Part shown: positions 21,575 through 49,447 of the stretch, piece by piece | Numbering within the stretch: position 1 is the first letter of the stretch | How the letters are laid out: the number at the start of each line of letters is the position of its first letter | Origin: Campylobacter ureolyticus | GTDB taxonomy: Bacteria > Campylobacterota > Campylobacteria > Campylobacterales > Campylobacteraceae | Direction: 5' to 3' | Assembly (NCBI RefSeq): GCF_013372225.1 | Contig: NZ_CP053832.1 | Location: 434,001 to 498,000 of the forward strand | Length of the DNA: 64,000 bases | Notes under the pieces: model-generated | Seen by the model: only the letters and a program-made list of their open reading frames with translations | Told to the model about the DNA's origin: nothing | Databases searched by the model: none | Program-made: the position numbers and the translations under genes

Positions 21575-22882
21575 ATGTTAAAAACTGTTTTGTCGCTATC
21601 ATTTGTTGTTGGAAGTAGGTTTTTTGGACTTTTTATAATACTTCCAGTTTTTGGACTTTATGCTTCAAATTTAAACAATTCAAACACAATGCTTGCTGGA
21701 GTTGCGATAGGAATTTATGCGCTTATGCAGATGATTTTTCAAATTCCATTTGGTGCTATGTCTGATAAATTTGGTCGTAAAAATGTTATGAGTTTAGGGC
21801 TTGTTATTTTTATTATAGGTTCGCTTATTTGTGGTTTTACAAATGATATTTATTGGATGATTTTTGGTAGATTTTTACAAGGAAGTGGGGCAGTTGGATC
21901 TGTGGCTATTGCTATGATAAGTGATTTTACAAGTGAAGAAAAAAGAGGCAAAGCAATGGCGATAATGGGCATGATGATTGGCGCTGCTTTTGGACTTTCG
22001 ATGGTTTTAGGACCTTATTTAAGCGCAAGATATGGGCTAGGAGTTTTATTTCACATAAGCACAGCTCTAACGCTCATTTGTATTATTTTACTCTATACAA
22101 CTGTGCCAGAAGAGATAAAAATTTCTTCACTTCAAAAAAAGGTTTCTATAATTGAAATATTAGTTCAAAAAGATTTAGCTTTGATGAATTTAACAAATTT
22201 TTTACAAAAAATGCTTTTAACAATGACTTTTTTTGTAATTCCAATTGTGCTTGTTACAAAACTTGGATTTATGGAAAAAAATCTTTGGATAGTTTATAGC
22301 ATATCTATGGTTTTTGGCTTTATTGCTATGGGAATGGCTGGATTTATGGGTGAAAAAAGAGGGCTTTCAAAAATGATTTTACTTTTAGGGATTTCATTTT
22401 TTATATTCTCTTATGTTTGTTTTGTTGTGGCTAATTCTAAAACACTTTTTATAATAGGGGTTATTTTATTTTTCATAGGCTTTAATATGCACGAGCCAAT
22501 TATGCAAAGTGCGGCATCAAAATTTGCAAAATCAGACCAAAAAGGAGCGGTTTTAGGTGTGTTTAACGCAGCTGGATATTTTGGAACATTTGTAGGTGGA
22601 ATTGGCGGTGGTGTCATGCTGGAAAATCTTGGCATTCATTATTTAGCTGCTATAATTGCAATAATTTGTATAATTTGGTTTTTACTTTTAATAAGCCTTA
22701 CAAATCCAGCAAATTTTAAAAATATTTATCTAAAAAATAGTGAAAATTTTGATTTAAGTAGTCTTGAAAACAGAGTTGGATTTATAGAGGCTTATAGAAA
22801 AAATTCTGAAATTGTGGTGAAGTTTAATAACAAATTTATAGGCGAAAATGATGTTAAAAAAGCTCTTAATATAAAGGAGTAA
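21575..22882 (+). CDS. MFS transporter with C-terminal YAM-like domain (YajR-like)
   Basis: This is a 435-residue, 12-helix major facilitator transporter. Motif A reads GAMSDKFGRKNVM after helix 2, and GRFLQGSGAVGSVAIAMISDF fits drug:H+ antiporters. The last about 60 residues form a small soluble domain after helix 12 (IVVKFNNKFIGENDVKKAL), which resembles the YAM domain of E. coli YajR. The substrate is unknown. The -10-like TATGAT near 21538 and AAGGAA before ATG 21575 fit a start here. plsC follows by 1 base. Confidence 0.87.
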   Translation: MLKTVLSLSFVVGSRFFGLFIILPVFGLYASNLNNSNTMLAGVAIGIYALMQMIFQIPFGAMSDKFGRKNVMSLGLVIFIIGSLICGFTNDIYWMIFGRFLQGSGAVGSVAIAMISDFTSEEKRGKAMAIMGMMIGAAFGLSMVLGPYLSARYGLGVLFHISTALTLICIILLYTTVPEEIKISSLQKKVSIIEILVQKDLALMNLTNFLQKMLLTMTFFVIPIVLVTKLGFMEKNLWIVYSISMVFGFIAMGMAGFMGEKRGLSKMILLLGISFFIFSYVCFVVANSKTLFIIGVILFFIGFNMHEPIMQSAASKFAKSDQKGAVLGVFNAAGYFGTFVGGIGGGVMLENLGIHYLAAIIAIICIIWFLLLISLTNPANFKNIYLKNSENFDLSSLENRVGFIEAYRKNSEIVVKFNNKFIGENDVKKALNIKE

Positions 22883-22883
22883 A

Positions 22884-23558
22884 ATGGCTAAAATAAATGG
22901 TGTAATTTATGCTGTTTGGTGTTTTTTAAGTATAGCAGTTGTTGTTATTTTATTTTATATAGTTCCTAAAAAAAACTATAAAATTCGTAAAATTTGGGCA
23001 AAAATTCAAAGATTTGTAATTGGCTATAAAATAGAAAAAATTGGCGAATTTGATGAAAAAGTAGATATGATTTTACTAAATCATAAAAGCATGCTTGATA
23101 TTATCATTTTGGAAGAAATTTATCCTAAAAACCTAGCTTGGGTGGCAAAAAAAGAAATCGGAGATTTACCATTTTTTGGTAAAATTCTAAAAACTCCAAA
23201 AATGATAGAAGTAGATAGAAAAAATAGCCGCTCAATTGTCTCTCTTATAAAAGATGTAAAAGATCGCCTAAAAAGTGATAGAGTTATTGCTATTTTTCCA
23301 GAAGGAACAAGAGGGCGTGGCGAAAAAATGCTTAAATTTCAAGATGGCGCAAAAGTTTTAAGCCAAAAACTAAACCTTAAAATTCAGCCAATTGTTTTAA
23401 AAGATACGCTTTATAATTTTGATGTAAAAGAAGTTAAGATAAGAAGTGAAAAAATAAAAGTAAATTGCCTTGAAATAATTGACTTAAGTAAGCCACAAGA
23501 TGAAAACTGGTATAAAAATTTGCATGAAGTTATGCAAAAAACTTATGATGAGATGTAA
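22884..23558 (+). CDS. plsC: 1-acyl-sn-glycerol-3-phosphate acyltransferase
   Basis: This is a 224-residue membrane-bound acyltransferase that converts lysophosphatidic acid to phosphatidic acid in phospholipid synthesis. It has one N-terminal membrane helix, then the catalytic NHKSMLD motif (NHxxxxD type, near residues 68-74) and FPEGTRGRGEK (block III, near residues 139-149). It starts 1 base after the MFS gene and ends 2 bases before crcB, so the three are probably one operon. Confidence 0.93.
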   Translation: MAKINGVIYAVWCFLSIAVVVILFYIVPKKNYKIRKIWAKIQRFVIGYKIEKIGEFDEKVDMILLNHKSMLDIIILEEIYPKNLAWVAKKEIGDLPFFGKILKTPKMIEVDRKNSRSIVSLIKDVKDRLKSDRVIAIFPEGTRGRGEKMLKFQDGAKVLSQKLNLKIQPIVLKDTLYNFDVKEVKIRSEKIKVNCLEIIDLSKPQDENWYKNLHEVMQKTYDEM

Positions 23559-23560
23559 AA

Positions 23561-23917
23561 ATGAGCTTTAAACTTTTGCTTTTAGTAGGATGTGGTGGGT
23601 TTTTGGGAGCGGTTTTACGCTTTATAATAAGTGCTTTTTGTTTTAAATTTTTACCGCTAAATTTTCCTTATGGGACATTGATTGTAAATTTAATGGGCGG
23701 ATTTTTAATAGGATATTTTACAAAAATGGGTTTAAATTTGGAACTTAAAAGCTTTTTAATAGCTGGATTTTTAGGAGCACTTACTACTTTTTCAACTTTT
23801 AGTGTAGAAAACATAAGCCTACTTCAAAATGCCAAATATGGATTATGTCTTTTAAATGTAAGTTTAAGTTTAGTGCTTAGTTTTGGAGCTTGTTATTTGG
23901 CATTGAAATTTAGCTAA
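23561..23917 (+). CDS. crcB: CrcB/Fluc fluoride channel
   Basis: This is a 118-residue, four-helix membrane protein that exports fluoride as a dual-topology dimer. Signature stretches are GGFLGAVLRF near the N-terminus, PYGTLIVNLMGGFLIGYF with the pore asparagine, and GFLGALTTFSTFS, the Phe-rich TTFSTF filter. It is the last gene of the MFS-plsC-crcB run. No fluoride riboswitch is evident upstream, because the gene lies inside the operon. Confidence 0.94.
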   Translation: MSFKLLLLVGCGGFLGAVLRFIISAFCFKFLPLNFPYGTLIVNLMGGFLIGYFTKMGLNLELKSFLIAGFLGALTTFSTFSVENISLLQNAKYGLCLLNVSLSLVLSFGACYLALKFS

Positions 23918-23922
23918 AAAAG

Positions 23923-24123
23923 TTAAGCTGCTTTTTTCTTTTTTTCATCTTTTTTATATTTTCCAAGTAAAAAATAAATCGGACAAAATTCACTAACACC
24001 ACTTACTAGCGGTATTAATCCTAAAAAACACCACCAAGTTGGATTTATAAGTCCAAAAATTAGCAAAATCAAAAACCCCAAAGTTATTCTTAAAACTCTA
24101 TCTATAATATTCACAAATTTCAC
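23923..24123 (-). CDS. DUF2892 small membrane protein
   Basis: This is a 66-residue protein with two membrane helices and the DUF2892 pattern: N-terminal DRVLRITLGFLIL, then GLIPLVSGVSEFCPIYFLLG with the conserved CPIY. A basic tail (KKDEKKKKAA) ends it. Such proteins occur alone or fused to rhodanese domains, and their role is unclear. It is convergent with crcB, separated by 5 bases. Confidence 0.87.
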   Translation of the reverse strand: MKFVNIIDRVLRITLGFLILLIFGLINPTWWCFLGLIPLVSGVSEFCPIYFLLGKYKKDEKKKKAA

Positions 24124-24213
24124 CTTTTATAATAAAATAATTTAAAAATTATAGCCAAATTTAAGCTTATTTTCTATAGAATGATAAGTTGTAATAATTT
24201 TAAAGGCGTTAAG

Positions 24214-25185
24214 TTGAAAAAAATAATAGTTGTTTTATTTGTCGCAGTTTTAACTATTTTTGGTTATGTGATATTTGTATCTATGGACTCAAAAGATGTT
24301 TTGAGTAAAAAGATAAGTTGCGTTTTTAATAAAGAAAAAAGTTGCTATGATTTAGGAGCTCATTTTTTAGAAGAAAAAACTTATGATTTAAATTCTTCGA
24401 TTATGTTTTTTGATAAATCATGCAATCTTAATAACCCACTTGCTTGTAACCACTTAGGATATATTTATCAAATTGGTGCGGCAAATAAGCCAGATATTAA
24501 TAAAGCAAAAGAGTATTATCAAAAAGGTTGTGATAAAGGTCTTGCGCTAGCTTGTAACAATAACGGTTATCTTTATGAATCAGTTGATAAAAATCTAAAA
24601 AAAGCTTTAGAGTATTATAATAAATCATGTGATCAAAACAACACTTTTGCTTGTAATCGTGCGGGCATTATTTATCAAGGCGATGAAAAAGACTTGGTAA
24701 AATCAATAAATGCTTTTATAAAATCTTGCAATAACGGTGATCCAACAGGTTGTAATAATTTAGCAGTGTTTTATCAAAATGGTGTTGTTGTTGAAAAAAA
24801 TTTAAATTTAGCTGCTGAACTTTATGCAAATTCATGTGAGGCAAAAAACTACACAGCTTGCAACAATTTAGCTATTTTTTATCAAAATGGTATTGGTGTT
24901 GAGCAAAATCCAGCAACAGCAATTAAATTATATGATTTAGCTTGCGCAAATAATGAGGGCTATGCTTGCTCAAATTTAGGATATTTGGTTCAAAACGGCA
25001 TAGGAATTGAGCAAAATATCGAGCTTGCTTTAAATCTATACCAAAAATCTTGCCAACTTGGCAATCAAACTGGTTGTAATATGCTTAATAGCTTAGCAAA
25101 AGCAATAGAAGAGTTTAAAAAACAAAATAGATCTCAAACAAATCTTGAAACCAAAGAAGAGTCAAGTCCAGCAATTGTCAGATAA
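24214..25185 (+). CDS. Sel1-like repeat protein with paired cysteines (Hcp-like)
   Basis: I chose TTG 24214 because AAAGG sits 7 bases upstream and it gives a signal/anchor MKKIIVVLFVAVLTIFGYV (323 residues). An ATG at 24181 would add 11 residues before the signal. The body has about seven Sel1-like repeats of about 36 residues. Each carries two cysteines in a CN(x5)ACNNLGYxYxxG layout, as in Helicobacter Hcp proteins, where each repeat is disulfide-locked. It is therefore probably a periplasmic or surface-facing protein. The binding partner is unknown. It overlaps the start region of the next gene. Confidence 0.85.
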   Translation: MKKIIVVLFVAVLTIFGYVIFVSMDSKDVLSKKISCVFNKEKSCYDLGAHFLEEKTYDLNSSIMFFDKSCNLNNPLACNHLGYIYQIGAANKPDINKAKEYYQKGCDKGLALACNNNGYLYESVDKNLKKALEYYNKSCDQNNTFACNRAGIIYQGDEKDLVKSINAFIKSCNNGDPTGCNNLAVFYQNGVVVEKNLNLAAELYANSCEAKNYTACNNLAIFYQNGIGVEQNPATAIKLYDLACANNEGYACSNLGYLVQNGIGIEQNIELALNLYQKSCQLGNQTGCNMLNSLAKAIEEFKKQNRSQTNLETKEESSPAIVR

Positions 25186-26338
25186 GACTATTATAATTGG
25201 CGGTGGAGTAAGTGGGCTGTTTTTAGCCGCACTTTTAAACTCCACTAATGTAACTATTTTAGAGAAAAACTCATCACTTGGTAAAAAACTTCTTGCAAGT
25301 GGTGGAGGAAAATGCAATATCACAAACCAAAATATCTCTTTTAAAAAAGATTTATTAAAATATTATCTTGGTGATAAAAACTTTATAAATCAAATCATTT
25401 CAAATTTAAGTTATTTAGAAGTTTTGGAATTTTTCAAACCCTTAAAATTTGAAAAAGTAAAAAACTCACAATTTTTTTGTAAAGGTGGTAAAGATGGTAA
25501 AACTGGCTCAAAAAGCGTTTTAAATCATCTAAAAAGTAAAATCACAAATCCAAAAATTTATTTAAATACTGAAGTTTTTGATGTTGAAAAAAATGATGAT
25601 ATTTTTAAAATTTATACAAATAATGGAAATTTTGAATGTAAAAATTTAATAATAGCAAGTGGTGGATTAAGCTGTCAAAATCTAGGAGTTAGCGATATAG
25701 GATATAAAATAGCTTCTAAATTTAATCACGAAATCTCTACTTTAAATCCAGCATTAGTTGGTTTTAGCGTTCAAAAAGATGAGTTTTGGTTTAAAAAAAT
25801 AAGTGGAGTTTGTTTTAATGCTAAGGCAAAAATACTTCAAAATAATAAAGTTTTAAGTGGTGATTTGCTTTTTACTCATCGTGGTATTAGCGGACCTTTG
25901 ATGATGAATGCTTCACTTTTTTGGCAAAAAGGAAAAATAAGTATTAACTTTTTACCAAAATTTGATTTTGATAAATTTAAAAACTCAAAAAAACAAATTA
26001 CTTCTATTTTACCGCTGCCAAAAAGCTTTATTAAAGAGTTTTTAAAAATTTCAAATTTAGAAGATAAGCAGTTTTTTAAGCTTTCAAATTTGGAATTTCA
26101 AATTTTGAAAAAACTGCAAAACTATGAGTTCTCACCTGCTGGAAATTTTGGATATAGCAAAGCTGAGATAACAAAAGGTGGGATAAAAATTGATTTTATA
26201 GATGAAAATTGTCAAAGTAGATTTATAAAAAATCTTTATTTTATAGGTGAAGTTCTTGATGTTAGTGGAATGATAGGAGGATTTAATATCCATTTTGCAT
26301 TTGCATGTGCAAAAGCTGTAAGTAAAGCGTTAAAATAG
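25175..26338 (+). CDS. NAD(P)/FAD-dependent oxidoreductase (YhiN/HI0933 family)
   Basis: This flavoprotein begins MSDKTIIIGGGVSGLFLAALL, a Rossmann FAD-binding motif. ASGGGKCNITN follows about 45 residues in and is diagnostic for the HI0933/YhiN family. The C-terminal MIGGFNIHFAFACAKA closes the FAD domain. I chose TTG 25175 (387 residues), which places the Rossmann strand at the usual distance. TTG 25145 would add ten residues. Neither start has a strong ribosome binding site, so translation may be coupled to the Sel1 gene. The substrate is unknown. Confidence 0.87.
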   Translation: MSDKTIIIGGGVSGLFLAALLNSTNVTILEKNSSLGKKLLASGGGKCNITNQNISFKKDLLKYYLGDKNFINQIISNLSYLEVLEFFKPLKFEKVKNSQFFCKGGKDGKTGSKSVLNHLKSKITNPKIYLNTEVFDVEKNDDIFKIYTNNGNFECKNLIIASGGLSCQNLGVSDIGYKIASKFNHEISTLNPALVGFSVQKDEFWFKKISGVCFNAKAKILQNNKVLSGDLLFTHRGISGPLMMNASLFWQKGKISINFLPKFDFDKFKNSKKQITSILPLPKSFIKEFLKISNLEDKQFFKLSNLEFQILKKLQNYEFSPAGNFGYSKAEITKGGIKIDFIDENCQSRFIKNLYFIGEVLDVSGMIGGFNIHFAFACAKAVSKALK

Positions 26339-26737
26339 TAATCTTATTTTATAAACTATTAAATATTTCCTATAGAATTTAAAAAATATTTTTTATTAAC
26401 TTAATATATTTGTATTAAAAATTAATAATTTAATCAAATAATTATTAAATTATTAAATACTGATAACATGTTTAAAATATTAAATTTTTTATTCTAAAAT
26501 AAGTTTAATTTGTCTTAAGGGATAAAATTTCAGAATATTATCAGCTTTTAAGTTACATATTGATATTATTACTCTTTTATTTAGTTTATGTTTATATATG
26601 ACATTATCATATCATATTTATTTTATTAACTTAATTTTGTAAATTAATATATTTAGTTCAGTATATTTTTATAAAACAATTGATACAATAACACATTATA
26701 ATATTTTTTTAAAATTATTATTATTAAGGAGGAAAAT
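26339..26737 (+). promoter_or_regulatory. AT-rich regulatory gap upstream of hydrogenase operon
   Basis: These are 399 bases of very AT-rich sequence with no gene. A TATAAT at 26697-26702 is the best -10 candidate. AAGGAGG at 26726-26732, five bases before the hydA start, is a full match to the anti-Shine-Dalgarno end of 16S. I see no convincing FNR, Fur or sigma-54 site. Confidence 0.5.
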
Positions 26738-28090
26738 ATGGGCTCTGTCTCGAGTATAAAAACTTTCGCACCACCTGCGGATGCTAGAGGTGGCGGTGTT
26801 GAGTTTGAGGGAACTTATAGGAAAGGTGAGCTAAGAGGCATTATTAAGATAAATCAAGACAATTGCACAGGATGTGATACCTGTAGTGCATTTTGTCCTA
26901 CTGATGCAATAATGGGCACTCTTGGTGTTGCTCACGCTATTGAGAATAATAGCTGTGTCGCCTGTGGTCAATGCTTGATAAATTGTCCATTTGGCGCAAT
27001 TGAACAGATGAGTTTTGTAGACGAAGTTATCAAAAAACTTGATGATCCGAAATCATTTGTTGTTGCCCATCCATCTCCAGCTGTTAGAGTTGCTTTAGCA
27101 GAAGAATTTGGAGCAGAACCTGGAAGTGTAACTATAAATAAGATGTATAATGCCTTTAAAAAAGCTGGGTTTCATATGTATGATGTGAATTTTGCAGCTG
27201 ATCATACAATTCTTGAAGAAGGCACCGAGTTTATTAAAAAAGTTAAATATTGGCTTTTGGGTGAAAGAAGCAAAGACTTAGAACATGTTTCTCATCACCC
27301 TTTTCCTCATTTTACAAGCTGCTGTCCTGCATGGGTAAGAAATGCTGAAATTTTTCACCCTGAGCTTATTCCGCATATTTCAGGTGCAAAATCCCCTATA
27401 CAAATGGGCGGTCCAATTGCAAAAACCTGGGGAGCAAAATTTATTTGGAAAGTTGATCCAAGAGATGTATTTATGGTACCTATTACTCCGTGTACTGCTA
27501 AAATTTTTGAAGCAAGTAGGCCAGAGTTTAATTCAGCTTGGAAATATCTTATTAAAAATAATGAAATTCCAAGTGATACTCCAAGCTTTCCTGATATCGA
27601 TGTTGTTCTTACAGCAAGAGATATAGCAACTTTGCTTAAAAAGAAAGGGATAAATCCCCTTGAAATGTCAGATGAATATGAAGATGAAGTTATGAATGTT
27701 TATTCAGGAGGTGGAACAATCTTTGGAAATAGTGGTGGAGTCATGGAGGCCGCTTTAAGAACGTCTTATTTTATATTAAGTGGAATGGAGTTAAAAAATC
27801 CTGATTTAACTCCTGTTAGAGGGTATGATAAAGATCTGGTTGAGGCAACTATACCAGTTCCATTAAAAGATTATGATGGAAAAATTATTGAGATTAAGGT
27901 TGCTGTTGTAAATGGTGCTTCTAAAAATATAAATAAAATCGCTAAAGAACTTGTGAGCAATCAAAATAAATATCATTTTATAGAGGTGATGAATTGTCCA
28001 GGTGGATGTGTAAATGGTGGTGGTCAGCCAGTTAGGACGATGGGAACATCATGGCTACACCCACTTTTACCACTTCCAATAAGAGCATAA
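26738..28090 (+). CDS. hydA: [FeFe]-hydrogenase large (catalytic) subunit
   Basis: This 450-residue subunit oxidises or makes H2 at a di-iron H-cluster. Two ferredoxin-like [4Fe-4S] sites come first: Cys43/46/49/53 and Cys73/76/79/83. The H-cluster motifs follow: TSCCPAW at 193-199, TPCTAK at 250-255 and EVMNCPGGCVNGGGQP from 416. All four H-cluster cysteines (195, 252, 420, 424) and the proton-channel Cys196 are present. The second motif has Thr where most enzymes have Met (MPC). It has no signal peptide and would be co-exported with the TAT-bearing small subunit, as in Desulfovibrio HydAB. It is rare in Campylobacter, which mostly use [NiFe] enzymes. Confidence 0.95.
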   Translation: MGSVSSIKTFAPPADARGGGVEFEGTYRKGELRGIIKINQDNCTGCDTCSAFCPTDAIMGTLGVAHAIENNSCVACGQCLINCPFGAIEQMSFVDEVIKKLDDPKSFVVAHPSPAVRVALAEEFGAEPGSVTINKMYNAFKKAGFHMYDVNFAADHTILEEGTEFIKKVKYWLLGERSKDLEHVSHHPFPHFTSCCPAWVRNAEIFHPELIPHISGAKSPIQMGGPIAKTWGAKFIWKVDPRDVFMVPITPCTAKIFEASRPEFNSAWKYLIKNNEIPSDTPSFPDIDVVLTARDIATLLKKKGINPLEMSDEYEDEVMNVYSGGGTIFGNSGGVMEAALRTSYFILSGMELKNPDLTPVRGYDKDLVEATIPVPLKDYDGKIIEIKVAVVNGASKNINKIAKELVSNQNKYHFIEVMNCPGGCVNGGGQPVRTMGTSWLHPLLPLPIRA

Positions 28091-28099
28091 GGAGAAGAT

Positions 28100-28441
28100 A
28101 TGGCAAAGTATGTTGAAAAAAAAGTAGGCTTATTATTTAGTAGAAGAGATTTTTTAAAAGTTGCAGGAGTTGGAGTATCTGCAATAGCAATTAGTGGATA
28201 TGTGCTAACAGATATAGTTAAGAAAAGAAAATCATATATTTCAATGCGTCAAGCAGGACTTTATAATGATGATAAAAGACTTCAAAAGGTCAATTTAACT
28301 GCATCTCATCAAAACCCAAGTGCTTTAAGAGCCTATAAGGACTTAAACACTGAGCCTATGGGGGAAGTTGCGGAAGAGCTTTTACACACAAACGTTTATG
28401 TAGATAGAATGAATTTGAAATTAGGAGTAAAACATGCGTGA
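28100..28441 (+). CDS. hydB: [FeFe]-hydrogenase small subunit with TAT signal
   Basis: This is a 113-residue small subunit (Fe_hyd_SSU). The N-terminus has a twin-arginine signal, SRRDFLKVAGVGVSAIAISG (residues 13-32). The mature part carries family stretches MRQAGLYNDD, ASHQNPSALRAYKD and EELLHTNVY. It wraps the catalytic subunit and carries it through the TAT pore to the periplasm. It starts 9 bases after hydA with its own AAGGAG, and its end overlaps the cytochrome b gene by 8 bases. Confidence 0.92.
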   Translation: MAKYVEKKVGLLFSRRDFLKVAGVGVSAIAISGYVLTDIVKKRKSYISMRQAGLYNDDKRLQKVNLTASHQNPSALRAYKDLNTEPMGEVAEELLHTNVYVDRMNLKLGVKHA

Positions 28442-29087
28442 TACAGTTTTAAAATTTCCTTTTAGTGAGAGGATGTTTCATAATGTAAATTTAATCACTT
28501 GGATGATACTTGCTTTTAGTGGTATTATTATATACTTTGGATTAATAGAAGAGTCAAGTGTTAAATTTTGGATGGATTTACATATTTATGTAGCAGTTCT
28601 TTTTACTGTAAATTTTGTAGGTTTTGTTATATTAAATTTTGATAGATTTGCTTTAATGCTTAGAAATTTACTTATTTGGGATAAAGATACTTTTGCGTGG
28701 TTTAAAAATTTTGGTGGTTATCCAAAAAAGATTTTTGGTATAAATTTTGGACCTGAAGAGGTTGCGCCACAAGGCAGATTTAATGCTGGTCAAAAACCAA
28801 CTTATTTGTTTTTTATCTTTATGATATTTGGACTTATTTTAACAGGTTGGGTTTTATATGCTTTAGCTCCAGTTATTGGAAAAACGGCTATGGTTTATAC
28901 GTTTTATTTCCATGTTTGGGGTTCTATAATAGCTACTGTGGTTGCTTTATTTGGGCATTTGCCTATGGCTCTTTTGAATAAAGATGATTTTAAAGCAATG
29001 TTTGGAAATGGTGAAGTTCCTTTGGAAAGTGCCAAAGAGCATTCTCCAAAATGGGTAGAAAATGACCTTGTTACAGTAAAACAATAA
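28434..29087 (+). CDS. Hydrogenase cytochrome b membrane subunit
   Basis: This is a 217-residue cytochrome b561/FdnI-like protein with four membrane helices. Candidate haem ligands are His16 in ERMFHNVN, the histidine of MDLHIYVAV in the second helix, and histidines in FYFHVWGS and ALFGHLPMA. It would anchor HydAB at the outer face of the inner membrane and pass electrons to the quinone pool. ATG 28434 overlaps the hydB stop. The gene is followed closely by hydG. Confidence 0.88.
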   Translation: MRDTVLKFPFSERMFHNVNLITWMILAFSGIIIYFGLIEESSVKFWMDLHIYVAVLFTVNFVGFVILNFDRFALMLRNLLIWDKDTFAWFKNFGGYPKKIFGINFGPEEVAPQGRFNAGQKPTYLFFIFMIFGLILTGWVLYALAPVIGKTAMVYTFYFHVWGSIIATVVALFGHLPMALLNKDDFKAMFGNGEVPLESAKEHSPKWVENDLVTVKQ

Positions 29088-29097
29088 AGGAAAAACG

Positions 29098-30567
29098 ATG
29101 GGATGGACACAAGATAGACTAGCAAAAATAAAAGAATGGGAAAAAGAGTGCAAGTGGGAAAATTTTGTAGATGAGAACTTAATCAATGATATTATTGAAA
29201 AGACGCAAAATCCTAGTAAAGAAAAAGTTTTAGCTGTTATAAAAAAAGCAAAATCAAATGCAAATACTGGAAAAATGCTTAGTCTTGAAGATACGGCTAT
29301 TCTTTTAAATAATACGGATAAAGAGTTAGATGAAGAAATTTTTAAAGCTGCTACTTATATAAAAAAAGAAATTTATGGGGATAGAATAGTTCTTTTTTCT
29401 CCATTTTATATTGCAAGTCCTTGTGTAAATGACTGTAAATATTGTGGATTTAGAGCTTCAAACAGTTCATTGTCTAAAAAAATATTAAAATTTGATGAGA
29501 TAAGAAGTGAGGTAGAGGCACTTTTAGACAGTGGTCAAAAAAGATTGATCGCTGTCTATGGTGAACATCCAAAGAGTGATTATGAATTTATAGCAAAAAG
29601 TGTTAGAGAAATTTATAGTATTAAAAAAGATAAAAGTGAAATAAGGCGTGTAAATATAAATGCAGCACCAATGTTTGAAGATGAGTATAAGGTCATTAAA
29701 AATGAAGGCATTGGCACATATCAAGTTTTCCAAGAAACTTATCATAGAAAAACTTATGAAAGCGTTCATCCACAAAATACTTTAAAAGGGCAGTATAATT
29801 GGAGGCTTTTTTCGCTTCATAGGGGTTTAAATGCTGGGCTTGAAGATGTGGCTCTTGGTGTTTTAATAGGACTTTATGATCATAGATTTGAAATTTTAGC
29901 AATGCTAAGTCATGCGTATAGCTTAGAAAAATACTTTGGAATTTCAGCTCACACAATGAGTTTTCCACGTATTAAAGCAACTTCAAATTCTCAAAAATTC
30001 AACCCATATATAATAAGTGATGAAGAGTTTTTAAAAGTTATTGCTATTATTAGGCTTATGTGTCCATTTACAGGAACAATACTAACAGCAAGAGAAGAGC
30101 CTGAGTTTAGAGATATAGCACTTAAAAAATGTGGTATTTCTCAAACCGATGCTGGAACAAATATAGGCATTGGTGGATATTCTCAAACAAAAGTAAAAAA
30201 TGATCTTACAAATCAGCAATTTAAAATAGGTGATAATAGAAGCATTGATGAGTATATTTTAAGTATTATAAAAGATGGTAGGCTTCCTTCATTTTGTACA
30301 AGTTGCTATAGAGAGGGTAGAACTGGCGAAAATTTTATGCCACTTGCTAAGAATGCGACAATAAAGTATCTTTGTATACCAAATGGAATTTTAACCTTTA
30401 AAGAGTACATTAGAGATTATGCAAGTGATGAGGTTAAGGATATCGGTGAAAATGTCATAATTCCAAAATATTTAGGAATTTTAAAAGAAAATTTACCAAA
30501 AGTTGCTCAAAAAGTTGAAGCTATGTTAAAAGATATAGAAAATGGTGGAAAAGACGCTCATATCTAA
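29098..30567 (+). CDS. hydG: [FeFe]-hydrogenase maturase HydG
   Basis: This 489-residue radical SAM tyrosine lyase makes the CO and CN- ligands and the iron synthon of the H-cluster. The radical SAM motif CVNDCKYCGF (CxxxCxxC) lies near residues 109-118. The second, C-terminal cluster site is visible as CTSCYREGRTGENFM near residues 400-414. Length and both sites agree with a full HydG, not ThiH. It starts 10 bases after the cytochrome gene (AAGGAAA ribosome binding site) and overlaps hydE by 26 bases. Confidence 0.95.
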   Translation: MGWTQDRLAKIKEWEKECKWENFVDENLINDIIEKTQNPSKEKVLAVIKKAKSNANTGKMLSLEDTAILLNNTDKELDEEIFKAATYIKKEIYGDRIVLFSPFYIASPCVNDCKYCGFRASNSSLSKKILKFDEIRSEVEALLDSGQKRLIAVYGEHPKSDYEFIAKSVREIYSIKKDKSEIRRVNINAAPMFEDEYKVIKNEGIGTYQVFQETYHRKTYESVHPQNTLKGQYNWRLFSLHRGLNAGLEDVALGVLIGLYDHRFEILAMLSHAYSLEKYFGISAHTMSFPRIKATSNSQKFNPYIISDEEFLKVIAIIRLMCPFTGTILTAREEPEFRDIALKKCGISQTDAGTNIGIGGYSQTKVKNDLTNQQFKIGDNRSIDEYILSIIKDGRLPSFCTSCYREGRTGENFMPLAKNATIKYLCIPNGILTFKEYIRDYASDEVKDIGENVIIPKYLGILKENLPKVAQKVEAMLKDIENGGKDAHI

Positions 30568-31612
30568 TTTGATCAAAAAGGCTTATGAGAATCATACTCT
30601 AAGCCTTGCTGAATGCGAAAGCATCTTGGAAAGCAGTCAATGTGATGAAGAGCTTTTTTATTTTGCAAATTTGGCTAGGATAAAATTTAGCAAAAAAGAA
30701 GTTCATTTAAAAGCCTTAATTGAAATTTCAAATTATTGTAAAAATAGCTGTTTTTATTGTGGATTAAGAAAACAAAATTTGAATGTTAAAAGATACAAAC
30801 TTAGTAAAGATGAAATTTTATCTACCGCAAAAAATGCAATAAATTTGGGCTATAAAACAATTGTTCTGCAATCTGGCGAAAGCAAAATTTATAACATAAA
30901 AGATATGTGTGAAATAATATCCAAAATTAGTAGTTTTGGAGCTAGAATAACACTAAGTTTGGGTGAAAAAAGCTTTGATGAGTATAAAGCATATAGGCAA
31001 GCTGGAGCAAATAGATATTTACTACGCATAGAAACAACAAATAAAGACTTGTATAAAAAGCTTCATCCAAAAATGAATCAAGAAAATCGTTTTTTAGCAT
31101 TAGAAAATTTACAAAATTTAGGCTATGAAACCGGAAGTGGAATGATAGTTGGTCTTCCTGGTCAAACAGAAAAAATGATAGCAAAAGATATTTTATTTTT
31201 TAAAGAAAAAAACTTTGATATGATAGGGGTTGGTCCATTTATACCATGTCAAAATACACCACTTGAAAGTTTAAAAGCAGGTGATTTTACTCTTTCACTA
31301 AAAGCAATGGCTTTAATAAGACTCTTAATGCCATTTATAAATATACCAGCCACAACAGCAATGGAGACACTTCATAAAAATGGAAGAGCAAAAGCCTTGC
31401 AAAGTGGGGCAAATGTTGTAATGCCTGCAATTGCTGATTATAAATATAGAAAAGATTATTTAATATATCCAAATAAAGCCACTGAAAATTTGGAGTTAAA
31501 AGAGCAGCTTTTAGGCGTTTCATCTCAAATAAACAAAGCTGGATTTTGTATATCAAGCCAGAATGGCGATAGTATGTATTTTAAAAATAGACAAGGAAAA
31601 CAGTGTGAATAA
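30542..31612 (+). CDS. hydE: [FeFe]-hydrogenase maturase HydE
   Basis: This 356-residue radical SAM enzyme acts on the HydG product while the di-iron subcluster is being assembled. The CxxxCxxC site is NYCKNSCFYCGLRKQN near residues 66-81. GSGMIVGLPGQT and a TIM-barrel pattern related to biotin synthase follow. ATG 30542 overlaps the end of hydG. The hydF start lies inside its last codons, so the three maturases are probably co-translated. Confidence 0.95.
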   Translation: MVEKTLISNLIKKAYENHTLSLAECESILESSQCDEELFYFANLARIKFSKKEVHLKALIEISNYCKNSCFYCGLRKQNLNVKRYKLSKDEILSTAKNAINLGYKTIVLQSGESKIYNIKDMCEIISKISSFGARITLSLGEKSFDEYKAYRQAGANRYLLRIETTNKDLYKKLHPKMNQENRFLALENLQNLGYETGSGMIVGLPGQTEKMIAKDILFFKEKNFDMIGVGPFIPCQNTPLESLKAGDFTLSLKAMALIRLLMPFINIPATTAMETLHKNGRAKALQSGANVVMPAIADYKYRKDYLIYPNKATENLELKEQLLGVSSQINKAGFCISSQNGDSMYFKNRQGKQCE

Positions 31613-32765
31613 AACACCAAATTCTATGCGTTTTACAATAGGAATTTTTGGCTGTACAAATGTTGGCAAATCAACGCTTTTAAATAAATTAGTAAAAGAA
31701 GATATTTCTATTACTTCTCCTATAGAGGGCACAACAACAGATAGCGTAAAAAAAGCTTATGAAATTGATGATGTTGGAGCAGTTTTATTTATAGATACTG
31801 CTGGAATTGATGATGATAGTGATCTTGGCAAAGAAAGAGTAAAAAGAGCATTTTTAGAAATTAATAGTATTGATTTAGCTATTATAGTTTTAAAAAATAG
31901 AGCTTTAAATAAGTATGAAATTGCATTGATTGATAAATTTAAAAAAGAGTGTATTCAAACACTATTTGTAGTAAATAAATTTGATGATGGAATTGCAAAT
32001 TTAAAACTTAAAAATGCTATAGTTTTAAATTTATTAAAAGATAATACTGATGAAATTTTTACTCAAATAAAAAAAATAGCTTATAAAAAAAATAAAGAGC
32101 TTTTTGATGGAATTTTAGGCAAAAATGAGTTTGTTGTTTTGATAACTCCGCTTGATAAAGCAGCGCCTAAAGGTAGAATGATTTTACCACAAGTTCAAGC
32201 CTTAAGAGACATCTTAGATAAAGGCTCAAATGCTTATGTTTCTCAAAATACAAATATAAATGAATTATTGTTAAATTTTAGTAAAAAACCAAATTTAATT
32301 GTAACTGACTCACAATATATTAAGGAAGTAGTTAAAAATTCTCCAATAGATATTAAAATAACTACTTTTTCGATACTAATGGCAAGACTAAAAGGTGATT
32401 TAAAGCAGTTTGTAGATGGTGCAAATGCTCTTGATAGATTAAAAAAAAGCGATAAAATATTAATCGCTGAGGCTTGCTCTCATAGATATGTTGAGGGTGA
32501 TATTGCAAGAGTTAAAATACCAAAGCTACTTGAAAAATATCTTGGGTTTAAGCCAAATTTAACATATATTTGCGGAAAAGAATTTAATAATATTGATAGT
32601 TTTAGTTTAATAATACATTGTGGTGGGTGTATGTTAAATGATAAAACTATGTTTAATAGGCAAAAAATAGCCAAGGATAATAATGTAGCTATAACAAATT
32701 ATGGAATTTTAATATCTAAAATTCAAGGAGTTTTAAAAAGATCAATTGAGATATTTGATTTATAA
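31605..32765 (+). CDS. hydF: [FeFe]-hydrogenase maturase HydF
   Basis: This is a GTPase scaffold that carries the immature di-iron cluster to HydA. I chose GTG 31605 (386 residues), with AAGGA at 31593-31597 as ribosome binding site. An in-frame ATG at 31563 would add 14 residues unlike the family. The P-loop is FGCTNVGKSTLLNKL, and DTAGIDDDSDLG follows as switch II. The C-terminal cluster domain shows the expected cysteine layout: ACSHRY, then ICGKEF, then HCGGCML. It is the last gene of the hydrogenase module. Confidence 0.95.
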   Translation: MNKTPNSMRFTIGIFGCTNVGKSTLLNKLVKEDISITSPIEGTTTDSVKKAYEIDDVGAVLFIDTAGIDDDSDLGKERVKRAFLEINSIDLAIIVLKNRALNKYEIALIDKFKKECIQTLFVVNKFDDGIANLKLKNAIVLNLLKDNTDEIFTQIKKIAYKKNKELFDGILGKNEFVVLITPLDKAAPKGRMILPQVQALRDILDKGSNAYVSQNTNINELLLNFSKKPNLIVTDSQYIKEVVKNSPIDIKITTFSILMARLKGDLKQFVDGANALDRLKKSDKILIAEACSHRYVEGDIARVKIPKLLEKYLGFKPNLTYICGKEFNNIDSFSLIIHCGGCMLNDKTMFNRQKIAKDNNVAITNYGILISKIQGVLKRSIEIFDL

Positions 32766-32802
32766 TTTTTTTGATAAAAAATATGAATAAAAGTAGATTA
32801 TA

Positions 32803-32832
32803 TTTCCAAACTTGCAAAAGCAAGTTTGGAAA
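32803..32832. terminator. Perfect inverted repeat between hydF and tonB
   Basis: A 13-bp perfect stem with an AAAA loop (TTTCCAAACTTGC / GCAAGTTTGGAAA) lies between two convergent operons. It is well placed to end both transcripts. It lacks a separate T tract, because the T and A runs are part of the stem, so terminator function is probable but not certain. Confidence 0.55.
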
Positions 32833-32836
32833 AAAA

Positions 32837-41784: not shown

Positions 41785-44592
41785 ATGTCGCAAGTTGATA
41801 TACAAAGTCCAAAAATTGGACGAAGGTCATTTTTAAAAATGGCAGCATTATCTGGCGCTTTAGCTGGTGCTTCAACTTTAAGTTCAGCCAAAGCTACTAG
41901 AGAAGCAACAAGTGATGAGCTTTCAAATCCATATCCTGGATCTAAAAAAGTAAGAACTGTTTGTACAGCCTGTTCAGTAGGTTGTGGGATAATAGCTGAG
42001 GTTTTAGATGGTGTTTGGATTAGGCAAGAAGTTGCTGAGGATCATCCATTTAGCGTTGGTGGACACTGCTGTAAAGGTGCTGACATGGTTGATATGGCAA
42101 GATCATCAGTTAGGCTTAAATATCCAATGGTAAAAGAAAATGGAAAATGGAAAAGGATAACTTATAAAGAAGCTATTGAAAATATTGGCGCTCAACTAAA
42201 AAAATATATGGATGAAAATCCAGAGCAAACTATGTTTATTGGCTCAGCTAAAATGAGCAATGAGCAAGCTTATTATATCCGCAAATTTGCGGCAATGTAT
42301 GGAACAAACAATATAGATCATCAAGCTAGAATTTGACATAGTGCAACAGTCGCCGGTGTGGCGAATACTTGGGGTTATGGCGCTATGACAAACTCACTTA
42401 ATGATATAGCTTTTTCAAAAGCTATAATTATATTTGGAGCAAATCCAGCAGTTAATCATCCTGTTGGCTTTAGACATTTTTTAAAAGCAAGAGAAAATGG
42501 TGCTGTTATGATAACTATAGATCCTAGATATACTCATACAGCTGCAAAAAGTGATTATTTTGCTCAAATTAGACCAGGAACGGATATAGCTTTTATATAT
42601 GGAATGCTTCACATAATATTTAAAAACGGTTGGCAAGATAAAGAGTTTATAAATAATCGTGTTTATGATATGGAAAGCATTGAAAAAGAGGCTTTAAAAT
42701 GGACTCCTGAAGTTGTTGAAGATGTAACTGGGGTAAAAAAAGAAACTTTATTAAAAATTACAGAAGTTTATGCTAAAAATCGCCCAGGAACGCTTATTTG
42801 GGCTATGGGTTTAACACAGCATACAATAGGCACATCAAACACAAGACTTGCTCCTATTTTGCAACTAGCTCTTGGAAATGCAGGTAAATCAGGTGGTGGA
42901 TGTAATATTTTAAGAGGACATGATAATGTTCAAGGCGCAAGCGATGTAGGTTGTTTGAGTGAAAATTTACCAGGATATTATGCATTAAATGAAACTAGTT
43001 GGAGACATTATGCAAACGTTTGGAAAGTAGATTATGAGTGGCTAGTATCACGTTTTGTAAGTAAAGAGATGATGCATAAAAGTGGTTTTACTCTTTCAAG
43101 ATGGTGGGCAGGTGTATTAGATGGTAAAAATGGAAATGATAAAATTCACAATGCCAACACTAGTTTAAAAGCACTTGTTGTAATGGGTAATGGTATAACA
43201 TCAACTGCCCAGCAAGTAAAAGTTCAAGAAGGACTTGATAATTTAGAGCTTTTAGTTATAACTGATCCTTTTGTAAATGAAGCTGCTGTCATAACAAATA
43301 AAAAAGATAATATTTTTATTCTTCCAGCTGCAACTCAATATGAATGTTCAGGCACCGTGGTAGCTACAAATAGAAGTGCTCAATGGAGATTTAAAGCAAT
43401 TGAGCCAATGTATGAGAGTAAGCCTGATGAGTATTTTTTATTTGAACTTGCTAAAAAACTTGGTTTTTATGATGAGTATGTGAGATCTTTAGGCGATGGA
43501 AAAGGAAATTTTCAGTGGCCAGAAGATGCAACAAGAGAGCTAACTAATGGATTAAAAAGTATAGGATATACTGGTTGGACTCCTGAAAGAATTAAAAACC
43601 ACACTCTTCATTGGGAGAAATTTGATAAAAAAACATTAAAGGGCTTTGATGAGTGTAAAGGTGAATATTATGGACTTCCTTGGCCATGCTGGACTACAAA
43701 ACATCCAGGAACTCCAAATTTATATGACATAAGTAAACCTGTAATGGATGGTGGAATGGGCTTTAGAAACAATTTTGGTTTAGAACACAACGGCGTTAGC
43801 CAGCTTGCTATAGATGGACCTGTTGGCTCATCAATAAATAAAGGCTATCCTCAAATAACAAAAGATAATATTGAAGAGATTTTAGGCATAACATTAACTG
43901 ATGAAGAAAAAGAGAAAATGGGAAAATCATGGAGTACTGATACAAGCAATATAATTGCTGAAAAATGCATGGAACAAGGTATTTCGCCTTATGGAAATGC
44001 AAGAGCAAGAGTAAGAGCTTGGAATTTTCCTGATGAGATTCCAATTCATAGAGAGCCACTTCATTCAAGAAGACATGATTTAGCTAAAAAATATCCAAGT
44101 TATGATGATAAGATAGATCATTACAGAGTTGATACTAAATATAAAAGTGTTCAACTTGCTAAAGACTATAGTAAAGAGTTTCCTATAAATTTAATTACAG
44201 GAAGACTTGTAAATTTAAACGGTGCAGGTATGGAAAATAGAGCAAGTCATTTTTTAGCAAGACTTACGCCTGAAATGTTTTGTGATATAAATCCAAATTT
44301 GGCTAAAAAATATGGTATTAAAGATGGCGATATGATGAAAATTTCTAGCCCAGAGGGAACTTGGATAAAAGTAAAAGCTAGATTTACTTATGCGGTAAAT
44401 GAAGTATCTGTACATTTGCCATTCCACTTTACTGGTGTAATGCAAGGAGTTGATATGTCTAAGAATTACCCAACTGGAACAAGGCCATACGCAATAGGCG
44501 AAAGTGCTAACACAGTTACAAACTATGGATACGATATATTTTGTCAGATTCCTGAAACAAAAGGCGGATTATGCCGCATAGAAAAAGCATAA
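41785..44592 (+). CDS. fdhA: Formate dehydrogenase alpha subunit, selenocysteine-containing
   Basis: This is a 935-residue molybdopterin oxidoreductase that oxidises formate in the periplasm. A TAT signal (GRRSFLKMA, residues 12-20) is followed by a [4Fe-4S] site (Cys60, 63, 67 and Cys95 or 96). The TGA at 42334-42336 is codon 184 and encodes selenocysteine in the context ARI-U-HSATVAG, the exact active-site setting of this family. The frame continues to 44592 with all domains, so this is neither two genes nor a pseudogene. A SECIS hairpin follows the TGA. AAGGAGG precedes ATG 41785. fdhB follows after 10 bases. Confidence 0.96.
42334..42366 (+). promoter_or_regulatory. UGA selenocysteine codon and bacterial SECIS hairpin of fdhA
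   Basis: The in-frame TGA is at 42334-42336. Thirteen bases later TCGCC (42350-42354) pairs with GGCGA (42360-42364) around the loop GGTGT. The apical GGU and the spacing match the E. coli fdhF-type SECIS that SelB binds. Confidence 0.85.
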
Positions 44593-44602
44593 GGAGTAGT
44601 TT

Positions 44603-45211
44603 ATGTCAAATACAAGAATGAAATTTTTATGTGACTTGGATAGGTGCATTGATTGTCATGGCTGCACGGTTGCGTGCGATAGTGGGCATGAGTTACCTCT
44701 TGATGTAAGAAGAAGAAGAGTTTATACTTTTAATGAAGGTGTTGTTGGTAAGGAGTATTCAGTTTCAATTGCTTGTATGCACTGCACTGATGCTCCTTGT
44801 GCGCAAGTTTGTCCAGTAAATTGTTTTTATATAAGAGATGATGGGATAGTTTTACACGACAAAGATACTTGCATAGCTTGTGGATATTGCTTATATGCAT
44901 GTCCTTATGGAGCACCACAATTTCCTAGAAATGAAACTAAATTTTTACCAAAAGGTGTTATGGATAAATGCACTATGTGTGCTGGAGGACCTGAAAAAAC
45001 CCATAGTGATGATGAGTTTCATAAATATGGTCAAAACCGTATAGCAGAGGGCAAAGTTCCACTTTGTGCTGCTATGTGCTCTACAAAAGCACTTTTGGTT
45101 GGAGATAAAAAAGTTGTTGATAAAATCTATAACGACAGAGTTGAGCTTAGAGGTTATAATACGGGATTTTTAGGAACATTGGATGAATATCCTGGAAATT
45201 CTTGGAAATAA
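44603..45211 (+). CDS. fdhB: Formate dehydrogenase iron-sulfur subunit
   Basis: This is a 202-residue ferredoxin-like subunit that passes electrons from FdhA to the cytochrome. Four cysteine clusters are visible: CIDCHGCTVAC near residue 12, CMHCTDAPCAQVCP near 58, CIACGYCLYACP near 91, and CTMCAGG with CAAMC later. It has no signal and would be exported together with FdhA. It lies 10 bases after fdhA. Confidence 0.94.
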   Translation: MSNTRMKFLCDLDRCIDCHGCTVACDSGHELPLDVRRRRVYTFNEGVVGKEYSVSIACMHCTDAPCAQVCPVNCFYIRDDGIVLHDKDTCIACGYCLYACPYGAPQFPRNETKFLPKGVMDKCTMCAGGPEKTHSDDEFHKYGQNRIAEGKVPLCAAMCSTKALLVGDKKVVDKIYNDRVELRGYNTGFLGTLDEYPGNSWK

Positions 45212-45250
45212 TTAGTTTTTTTACAGAAAGTAAAATTTAGATTTATATTG

Positions 45251-45256
45251 TATAAT
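45251..45256 (+). promoter_or_regulatory. Possible internal promoter before fdhC
   Basis: TATAAT preceded by TTG lies 34 bases before the fdhC start, in the only sizeable gap (78 bases) of the fdh operon. It could give separate expression of fdhC, fdhD and modE. Confidence 0.4.
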
Positions 45257-45289
45257 AGTTAAATTTAATGTTTTTTAAAAGGTATAAAG

Positions 45290-46252
45290 ATGAGAAAAAT
45301 TTTTATTTTGCTTTGCTCTTTTGCTGGGCTTTTTGCATATAATGAAGAATTTAAAAAAGCAATTCAATATGATAGTAGTGTTTGGGGAAAAGCTAGGGTT
45401 GAAAATATAGATGCTTATTACAACCATCCTTTTGCTGAATGGTTTGTTTGGCTTCAAAGTAGTGGTTTTTTTGCAAATTTAGCTTTATTTGCAATAATTG
45501 CTGTCTTAGTCGCTTTTGTTGGGCACTATGCTATCGTAGGGCCAAAGTCATTTTCACACGATCATGGTAAGGTTTATGCTTTTAATGTTATAGAAAGACT
45601 TACTCATGCAGTTGCGGCACTTTCTTGGGTTATCCTTGTTCCGACTGGTATTATTATGATGTTTGGAGAAGAATTTGGTGGAGGATTTTTTGTAAGATTA
45701 TGTAAAAATTTACATGGAATAGCTACTATTTTGTTCGCTATAGTTTTACCATATATGTTCTTTAAGTGGCTTTTTAGAATGCTTCCTGCAACTTACGATG
45801 CTAGATGGGCTATTATGGTAGGTGGATATCTATCAAAGAATAAAAAACCAATTCCAGCAGGTAAATTCAATCTTGGACAAAAAGCTTGGTTTTGGGTTTG
45901 TATGGGTGGTGGATTTATCATGGTTATAACAGGGGCTTTGATGTATTTTTTAGATACACAAATTCCTGTAGCAAATGGTGCGTTTTTAGGAATGACACAA
46001 ATAGATATTTTAAGATTAAGCGCTATCATCCATAATATTTTAGGTGCAGCATGTGCTGTATTTTTGCTTGTTCATATTTATATGGCAGTATTTTGTATAA
46101 AAGGCTCAATCCATGCTATTATAAATGGATATAAAGAAGAAGAAGAAGTTTATATACTTCATCATTATTGGTATCAAGAACTTCTTAGAAAAGGTAAAAT
46201 TAAACCTTCTATTTTTGAAAAAGAATATACAAATTTAAAGCCAGTTAAATAA
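45290..46252 (+). CDS. fdhC: Formate dehydrogenase cytochrome b subunit
   Basis: This is a 320-residue membrane subunit that hands electrons to menaquinone. A signal-like N-terminus (MRKIFILLCSFAGLFAYNEE) and an extra membrane segment precede the four-helix cytochrome b core. Candidate haem ligands are the histidines in IERLTHAVAALSW, CKNLHGIATI, AIIHNILGA and FLLVHIYMA. The C-terminus is cytoplasmic. fdhD begins directly after its stop codon. Confidence 0.93.
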   Translation: MRKIFILLCSFAGLFAYNEEFKKAIQYDSSVWGKARVENIDAYYNHPFAEWFVWLQSSGFFANLALFAIIAVLVAFVGHYAIVGPKSFSHDHGKVYAFNVIERLTHAVAALSWVILVPTGIIMMFGEEFGGGFFVRLCKNLHGIATILFAIVLPYMFFKWLFRMLPATYDARWAIMVGGYLSKNKKPIPAGKFNLGQKAWFWVCMGGGFIMVITGALMYFLDTQIPVANGAFLGMTQIDILRLSAIIHNILGAACAVFLLVHIYMAVFCIKGSIHAIINGYKEEEEVYILHHYWYQELLRKGKIKPSIFEKEYTNLKPVK

Positions 46253-48431: not shown

Positions 48432-49447
48432 AATATAGAAATTTTAATTTGACAAAATTTGTAAAAGCTGCTGGTTGAGCCGCTAAAATAGACCCGGCGG
48501 GTCTTAACAAAAGTTTAGAGGGCATAGTGGAAAAAAGCAAGTTTTTACTATCAAATACGACGAATAATGAAGATGCGAGTGTTTTTAAACTAACAGATGA
48601 TATAGCCATTGTACAAACGCTTGATTTTATAACGCCTGTTGTTGATGATCCATTTGTTTTTGGCGAGATTGCAGCTGCGAATTCTTTAAGTGATATTTTT
48701 GCTATGGGAGCAAAGCCACTAAATGCACTAAATATAGTAGGTTTTGATAGTTGTCATTTTTCAAGTGAAATTTTAGCTGAAATTTTAGCTGGCGGAAAGA
48801 GCAAAGTTATTGAATGCGGTGCAGAGATTGTTGGTGGACATAGTATAGAGACACCTGAGATGTATTATGGCTTAAGTGTTACTGGCAAGGTCCATCCAAA
48901 TAAATTTTGGAGCAACAATACCTCTAAAATAGGAGATTTGCTAATCCTAACCAAGCCTCTTGGAATGGGAATTTTGAGCACTGCAATTAAAGGCGATATG
49001 TTAAATTTAGATGAGATAAAAGAGGGTATTTTTCACATGACTCAGCTAAATTTTTATGCTCTAAATGCCCTAAAAGGCTTAAAAGTAAATGCTTGTACCG
49101 ATGTTACTGGTTTTGGGCTTTTAGGACACGCAAGTGAAATGCTTAATAATGAAATTTCCATTTCATTTTATAAAGATAAAATTCCTATTTTAAACGAAGC
49201 CATAAAGTGTGCAAATTTAGGTTTAATTCCTGGTGGAGCTTATAGAAATTTAGAATTTATTAAGAATTTTACAAATACCAAGCCTGATATAGTGTTTTGT
49301 GATCCACAAACAAGTGGCGGACTTTTGATAGCAGTTAGCCAAAAAGATGCTCGAATAGCTTTAACAAATTTAAAAAATGCAGGTTATGAAAACTCTCAAG
49401 TCATTGGTGAAGCAGTCCCTAAAAAAGAGTTTGATATATATATTTAA
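48428..49447 (+). CDS. selD: Selenophosphate synthase, selenocysteine-containing
   Basis: This 339-residue enzyme makes selenophosphate, the selenium donor for selenocysteine. The gene starts at TTG 48428, overlapping yedF by 4 bases. Codon 17 is TGA (48476-48478) in KAAG-U-AAKIDPAGL, where selenocysteine replaces the catalytic cysteine. A shorter frame from ATG 48527 would lose the active site. A SECIS hairpin follows the TGA. Later motifs are DFITPVVDDPFVFGEIAAAN, GGHSIETPEMYYGLSVTG, TDVTGFGLLGHASEM and DPQTSGGLL. The enzyme thus needs its own product to be made. Confidence 0.95.
48476..48504 (+). promoter_or_regulatory. UGA selenocysteine codon and SECIS hairpin of selD
   Basis: The in-frame TGA is at 48476-48478. 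Eleven bases later AGACC (48490-48494) pairs with GGTCT (48500-48504) around the loop CGGCG. The GC-rich stem with an apical GG stands out in this AT-rich genome and fits a bacterial SECIS. Confidence 0.82.

Follow-up and report, generated by a model that had tools for sequence, protein, structure and literature searches.

What does a complete set of [FeFe]-hydrogenase genes do in Campylobacter ureolyticus, and how did it come to be there alongside a [NiFe]-hydrogenase? The set lies in a window of 64,000 nucleotides (the whole stretch of DNA analysed here, positions 434001–498000 of the complete 1.82-Mb genome) as six consecutive open reading frames (ORFs), all of them open, on the + strand at 26738–32765, in the order hydA-hydB-cytb-hydG-hydE-hydF. 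We propose, with a probability of about two in three, that the module is old and largely vertically inherited and that it encodes a periplasmic, membrane-held H2:menaquinone oxidoreductase that would act mainly in H2 uptake. Enzymes of the [FeFe] class have mostly been studied as H2 producers, and a quinone-wired periplasmic member in a Campylobacter with a small genome, next to a [NiFe] enzyme, lends itself naturally to the question of what determines catalytic direction; it also raises the question of why most relatives discarded the module. The six-gene cluster is not new for Campylobacter, having been published in 2016 (PMC4794192), so the value of the locus as a discovery is modest.

The reading of the six genes as a complete [FeFe]-hydrogenase module, put forward in an earlier note made from the sequence, was confirmed by the ORFs, by Pfam and NCBIfam assignments that were concordant for each of the six proteins, and by motifs; intact frames and motifs together ruled out chance similarity or a pseudogene. 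hydA (26738–28090, + strand) encodes a catalytic large subunit of 450 amino acids (aa) with two [4Fe-4S] sites and the H-cluster, matching Fe_hyd_lg_C at 2.6e-68, scoring far above the cut-off of PF02906 and falling just under that of TIGR02512 (388.6 bits, cut-off 405.95). It carries the three motifs of group A [FeFe]-hydrogenases (L1 TSCCPxW, L2 xPCxxK and L3 MxCPGGCxxGGGQP) as TSCCPAW at residue 193, PCTAK at 251 and MNCPGGC at 418, and the accessory-cluster motifs CTGCDTC at 43 and CVACGQC at 73. hydA is the only [FeFe] large-subunit gene of this genome, which also has one [NiFe] large subunit. Upstream of hydA lies an AT-rich leader of 400 bp (26339–26737, + strand), presumed to be the promoter region, with a GGAGG ribosome site directly 5′ of the gene.

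HydA has no signal peptide of its own. As the earlier note had it, the twin-arginine translocation (Tat) signal is carried by the small subunit, HydB (28100–28441, + strand, 113 aa), which matches Fe_hyd_SSU at 7.6e-12 and bears the Tat motif SRRDFLK together with a hydrophobic helix in which no cleavage site can be recognised. HydB aligns with the Desulfovibrio small subunit, Tat region included, and the mature N terminus of the latter, which in the precursor comes after an AVA-type site rich in Ala, aligns with HydB residue 40. In the alignment of HydB homologues, 16 of 16 lack an Ala-X-Ala cleavage site at the corresponding position; all 16 have TD[IL] at the aligned Desulfovibrio mature start, and all share a conserved run of basic residues with YI after it. 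These conserved features predict an uncleaved membrane anchor, and this Tat helix is probably retained in the membrane, where it would hold HydAB.

The third gene (28434–29087, + strand, 217 aa) encodes an FdnI-like cytochrome b, the predicted quinone-linked membrane subunit, matching Ni_hydr_CYTB at 2.8e-16 and exceeding the cut-off of PF01292. Its four predicted transmembrane segments (residues 15–33, 49–67, 125–143 and 163–181) and its histidines at 16, 50, 160 and 175 correspond to the four helices and haem-binding histidines of quinone-linked cytochromes b of the FdnI/HydC type, and its best solved match is Escherichia coli FdnI (2.6e-8, full length); these features support the quinone link suggested earlier. 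What had been described as a fusion of HydAB to the cytochrome is a set of three separate adjoining genes, abutting or overlapping by a few bases; such tight spacing along the six genes fits one operon.

All three maturases were recovered as equivalogs above their cut-offs with cluster-binding motifs present, so that the HydEFG set is complete, as had been claimed. hydG (29098–30567, + strand, 489 aa), for the radical S-adenosylmethionine (SAM) maturase that supplies the CO and CN ligands, scores 418.4 bits against TIGR03955 (cut-off 312.15) and has CVNDCKYC and a C-terminal CX2CX22C; hydE (30542–31612, + strand, 356 aa), for the other radical SAM maturase, scores 352.2 bits against TIGR03956 (cut-off 254.6) and has CKNSCFYC. 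hydF (31563–32765, + strand, at most 400 aa), for the GTPase scaffold maturase, scores 444.9 bits against TIGR03918 (cut-off 325.55) and has the P-loop GCTNVGKS and a C-terminal HCGGC. The hydF ORF starts at 31563, which is probably too early, and the GTG at 31605, with AAGGA upstream, is probably the true start.

We suggest that HydG, HydE and HydF would act in the cytoplasm, assembling the H-cluster on HydA, and that folded HydA would then be exported together with HydB through the Tat system. The HydB signal helix would remain in the membrane and keep HydAB next to the cytochrome b with its four helices. H2 would be split at the periplasmic face, with electrons passing through the two [4Fe-4S] clusters of HydA to the b haems and from there to menaquinone, and H2 uptake would be the main direction.

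The proposed direction draws on the L2 motif of HydA, ITPCTAK, which has Thr where most group A enzymes carry Met. The H-cluster site, called intact in the earlier note, does retain all three motifs and, as judged from them, is intact yet not canonical. The same Thr is present in every relative copy except that of genome G289, which has Met, as have the two plasmid homologues examined; a literature search for the TPCxxK pattern gave no match. CpII of Clostridium pasteurianum has Thr at the same L2 place and a strongly altered bias (PMC10055695), which lies strongly towards H2 oxidation (PMC9563086), and in this residue HydA resembles uptake-biased CpII and not neutral CpI. The link between Thr and bias is a correlation in one enzyme; for the question of catalytic direction, the contrast of interest is Thr versus Met near the bridging CO. 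The Tat-helix and L2 Thr features both speak for uptake of H2 with menaquinone as acceptor, in agreement with the mid-point potentials.

The same enzyme could instead mainly form H2, discharging electrons from menaquinol or formate when acceptors are short, with the proton gradient paying for it. Transfer from menaquinol (about -75 mV) to H2 (-414 mV) would be strongly uphill, and the CpII-like Thr likewise speaks against H2 formation. HydA of Shewanella oneidensis, however, is called H2-forming (PMC12410911), a closely related cluster being present in Shewanella (PMC4794192), and the uptake reading may therefore be wrong. Formate-driven H2 release is also conceivable, as the window encodes a formate dehydrogenase linked to quinone that could feed such a reaction. 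On balance we regard predominant H2 formation as rather doubtful. The genes for FdhA, FdhB and FdhC lie at 41785–46252, that for FdhA with an in-frame UGA at 42334–42336 at which selenocysteine is expected, and a SelD-like gene stands near them at 48527.

With respect to known systems, the 2016 study placed the large subunit of Sulfurospirillum cavolei in one clade with those of C. rectus, C. ureolyticus and C. hyointestinalis, reported for C. rectus and C. ureolyticus the identical order of large, small and membrane subunit, HydG, HydE and HydF, with no aspartate ammonia-lyase gene, and described a related cluster carrying another insert in Shewanella (PMC4794192). We found no difference between the published C. 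rectus, C. ureolyticus and C. hyointestinalis cluster and the module in the window. The juxtaposition of HydAB and an FdnI-like cytochrome, which the earlier note had considered remarkable, is the usual arrangement of this known cluster. Its premise that Campylobacter normally use [NiFe]-hydrogenases is consistent with the finding that 13 of the 14 genomes of this genus, the present one included, have a [NiFe] large subunit; [FeFe] modules, however, were already on record for Campylobacter (PMC4794192). The S. cavolei cluster (G282, L003) has the same six genes in the same order, with HydA 76% identical, and differs by an aspartate ammonia-lyase gene between hydG and hydE. That of S. oneidensis MR-1, periplasmic and of the same type according to PMC4794192, was compared through its published description; it differs by an extra gene between hydG and hydE and by its description as H2-forming.

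The best solved relatives of HydA are periplasmic Desulfovibrio enzymes (1e-94), the closest being D. desulfuricans HydAB. This enzyme (1hfe) is likewise a two-subunit periplasmic hydrogenase with two accessory clusters and a separate small subunit with a Tat signal, but the signal on its small subunit is cleaved and its L2 has Met. Desulfovibrio HydAB passes electrons to cytochrome c3 and, unlike the module in the window, has no cytochrome b. The FdnI cytochrome of E. coli formate dehydrogenase-N (1kqf_C), a four-helix di-haem cytochrome b, belongs to the same domain family as the window cytochrome; the similarity is full-length yet weak, and the window copy would serve a hydrogenase.

Near-full-length HydA was found by protein search in 13 of 153 Campylobacteraceae genomes, spread over four of 12 genus codes (g1, 2/14; g2, 1/16; g3, 6/48; g9, 4/14), while the 49 g4 genomes yielded no such copy. 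Among 397 Campylobacterota drawn evenly, 15 had a HydA match above the family cut-off; this contributed one further genome each from families f4 and f10 and two from f5. The f10 genome was taken as S. cavolei UCH003. The order A-B-C-G-E-F is constant across the intact loci not cut by a contig end, every such Campylobacteraceae locus included; the exceptions are G289, which lacks hydG in the region, and G282, G289, G225 and G427, to which a lyase gene has been added. This aspartate ammonia-lyase-like gene was seen within or beside the module at L080 (G289), L081, L082 and L083, all outside Campylobacter proper.

Three more genomes hold decayed remnants, indicating losses. In G071 (L078:8745–9310), hydA residues 1–145 are joined to the tail of hydF, as expected from one internal deletion; G005 retains pieces of hydA, hydB, the cytochrome gene and hydF; and G147 has a hydA with eight stops and a piece of hydF. 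The G071 stub occupies the same site as the whole module of G075 and yet is nearer to G067 (89%) than to G075 (85%), which suggests that the G075 module may have been replaced.

To ask how the module reached this genome, we compared HydA with RpoB, the tree of which served alone as a stand-in for the species tree, and built trees from Campylobacterota sequences. From this genome, HydA and RpoB identities are 86.9% and 86.1% to its congener G007, 79.3% and 78.1% to G016, and 76.8–78.6% and 76.6–78.1% to six g3 genomes, so that for each of the other eight Campylobacter carriers the two measures differ by no more than two points; over 91 pairs (Campylobacteraceae and S. cavolei) they correlate with r=0.79 and a mean difference of -1.8. 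In a six-protein tree the nine Campylobacter genomes form one clade (support 99/98), in which this genome pairs with G007 (100/100) and next with G016 (100/100), and the Campylobacter part agrees with the RpoB tree. The RpoB-matched divergence and the six-protein tree together argue for long residence.

A recent horizontal acquisition, with another anaerobe as donor to this species, would suit the patchy spread over 13 of 153 genomes, the differing sites of the module and the variable slot that the window copy occupies. Against it, the HydA identity of every Campylobacter pair with this genome follows RpoB, and the Campylobacter tree agrees with that of RpoB; the remnants imply loss, and the GC content of the module is 31% against 29% in its flanks. 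Neither the Campylobacterota trees nor the RpoB comparison gave a sign of transfer into this genome from a distant source, and to judge from divergence, tree and composition a recent import appears quite unlikely. An exact-peptide-pattern scan of the genome collection matched solely in Campylobacteraceae/Sulfurospirillum, and matches on plasmids belonged to other types, with identities of 39% or less.

Transfer within the phylum does occur, and this lends the import scenario some plausibility. The two f5 genomes nest among g9 genomes, with HydA on average 8.7 points more similar than RpoB, and holding g9 and S. cavolei together was rejected (approximately unbiased (AU) test, p 1.7e-10), although this grouping was picked after the HydA tree had been viewed. 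G033 and G075 agree at 92.6% of four-fold sites in hydA versus 65.8% in rpoB; their modules stand at different sites, and nucleotide similarity stops at the module ends at the sensitivity used, with a short stretch upstream that looks alike by eye. The data support two exchanges within the phylum, neither involving this genome. Between the two origins offered in the earlier note, transfer or the retention of an old trait by only some species, RpoB tracking, tree and remnants speak for the second and against transfer into this genome. The module is most likely an old one of Campylobacteraceae/Sulfurospirillum, to judge from these comparisons, that has been passed on mostly by vertical descent, with many losses, and has changed its place in the genome as a unit.

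In this genome the module fills a variable slot (26339–32836) that runs from an aminoacetone-oxidase-family gene (25145) to tonB (32837) and holds unrelated genes in other species. The neighbourhood is conserved on the left (21575–26338) and on the right (tonB-exbD-exbB, a haem receptor, 36815 and 37429); the equivalent slot contains eight unrelated genes in G002, four in G001 and a single one in G007, with no hyd remnant in any of the three, and in G007 and G001 the tonB set is missing from this place as well. G007 has its module elsewhere in its genome. Lyase aside, loci have flanking genes in common in sister pairs only, and the site differs in almost every genome. This pattern could reflect movement of the module inside genomes or its exchange among similarly diverged lineages. 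It is possible, though we put this forward tentatively, that the module is a relocatable cassette, kept whole while moving among variable chromosomal slots in Campylobacter and repeatedly lost, that encodes an uncharacterised Thr-tuned, Tat-anchored respiratory [FeFe] enzyme for uptake. A mobile element marked by repeats or a tRNA was not found near the module in scans of the window: the repeat scan gave only AT-rich matches and those due to paralogy of the maturases, and all tRNAs of the window lie 28 kb away.

Besides the Shewanella enzyme, several points weigh against an old, vertically held uptake hydrogenase. The trees cover Campylobacterota sequences only; relocation between species makes transfer among equally diverged close relatives possible; a literature search turned up neither expression nor activity data for a Campylobacter copy; and in S. 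cavolei NBRC 109482 hydA is frameshifted by an insertion and the protein went undetected (PMC6242987). This last case, like the decayed copies in three relatives, would fit an operon that is present yet silent or decaying; with six frames and all motifs intact here, and HydA protein divergence at the level of RpoB pointing to continued selection, we judge this highly improbable.

At L067:5983–10790 and L069:5781–10586, two Campylobacter genomes, G066 and G031, have a second HydA that branches from that genome's own HydA and is fused in frame to a HydB domain without a Tat signal. A TorC-like mono-haem protein and then a TorA-like molybdoenzyme that itself carries a Tat motif are encoded 3′ of the fusion, which is possibly cytoplasmic or rides on the molybdoenzyme. 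Last, between hydF and the convergent tonB of the window lies a perfect long hairpin, CCAAACTTGC AAAA GCAAGTTTGG, with A/T extensions (32806–32834) and without a T-run on the hydF side.

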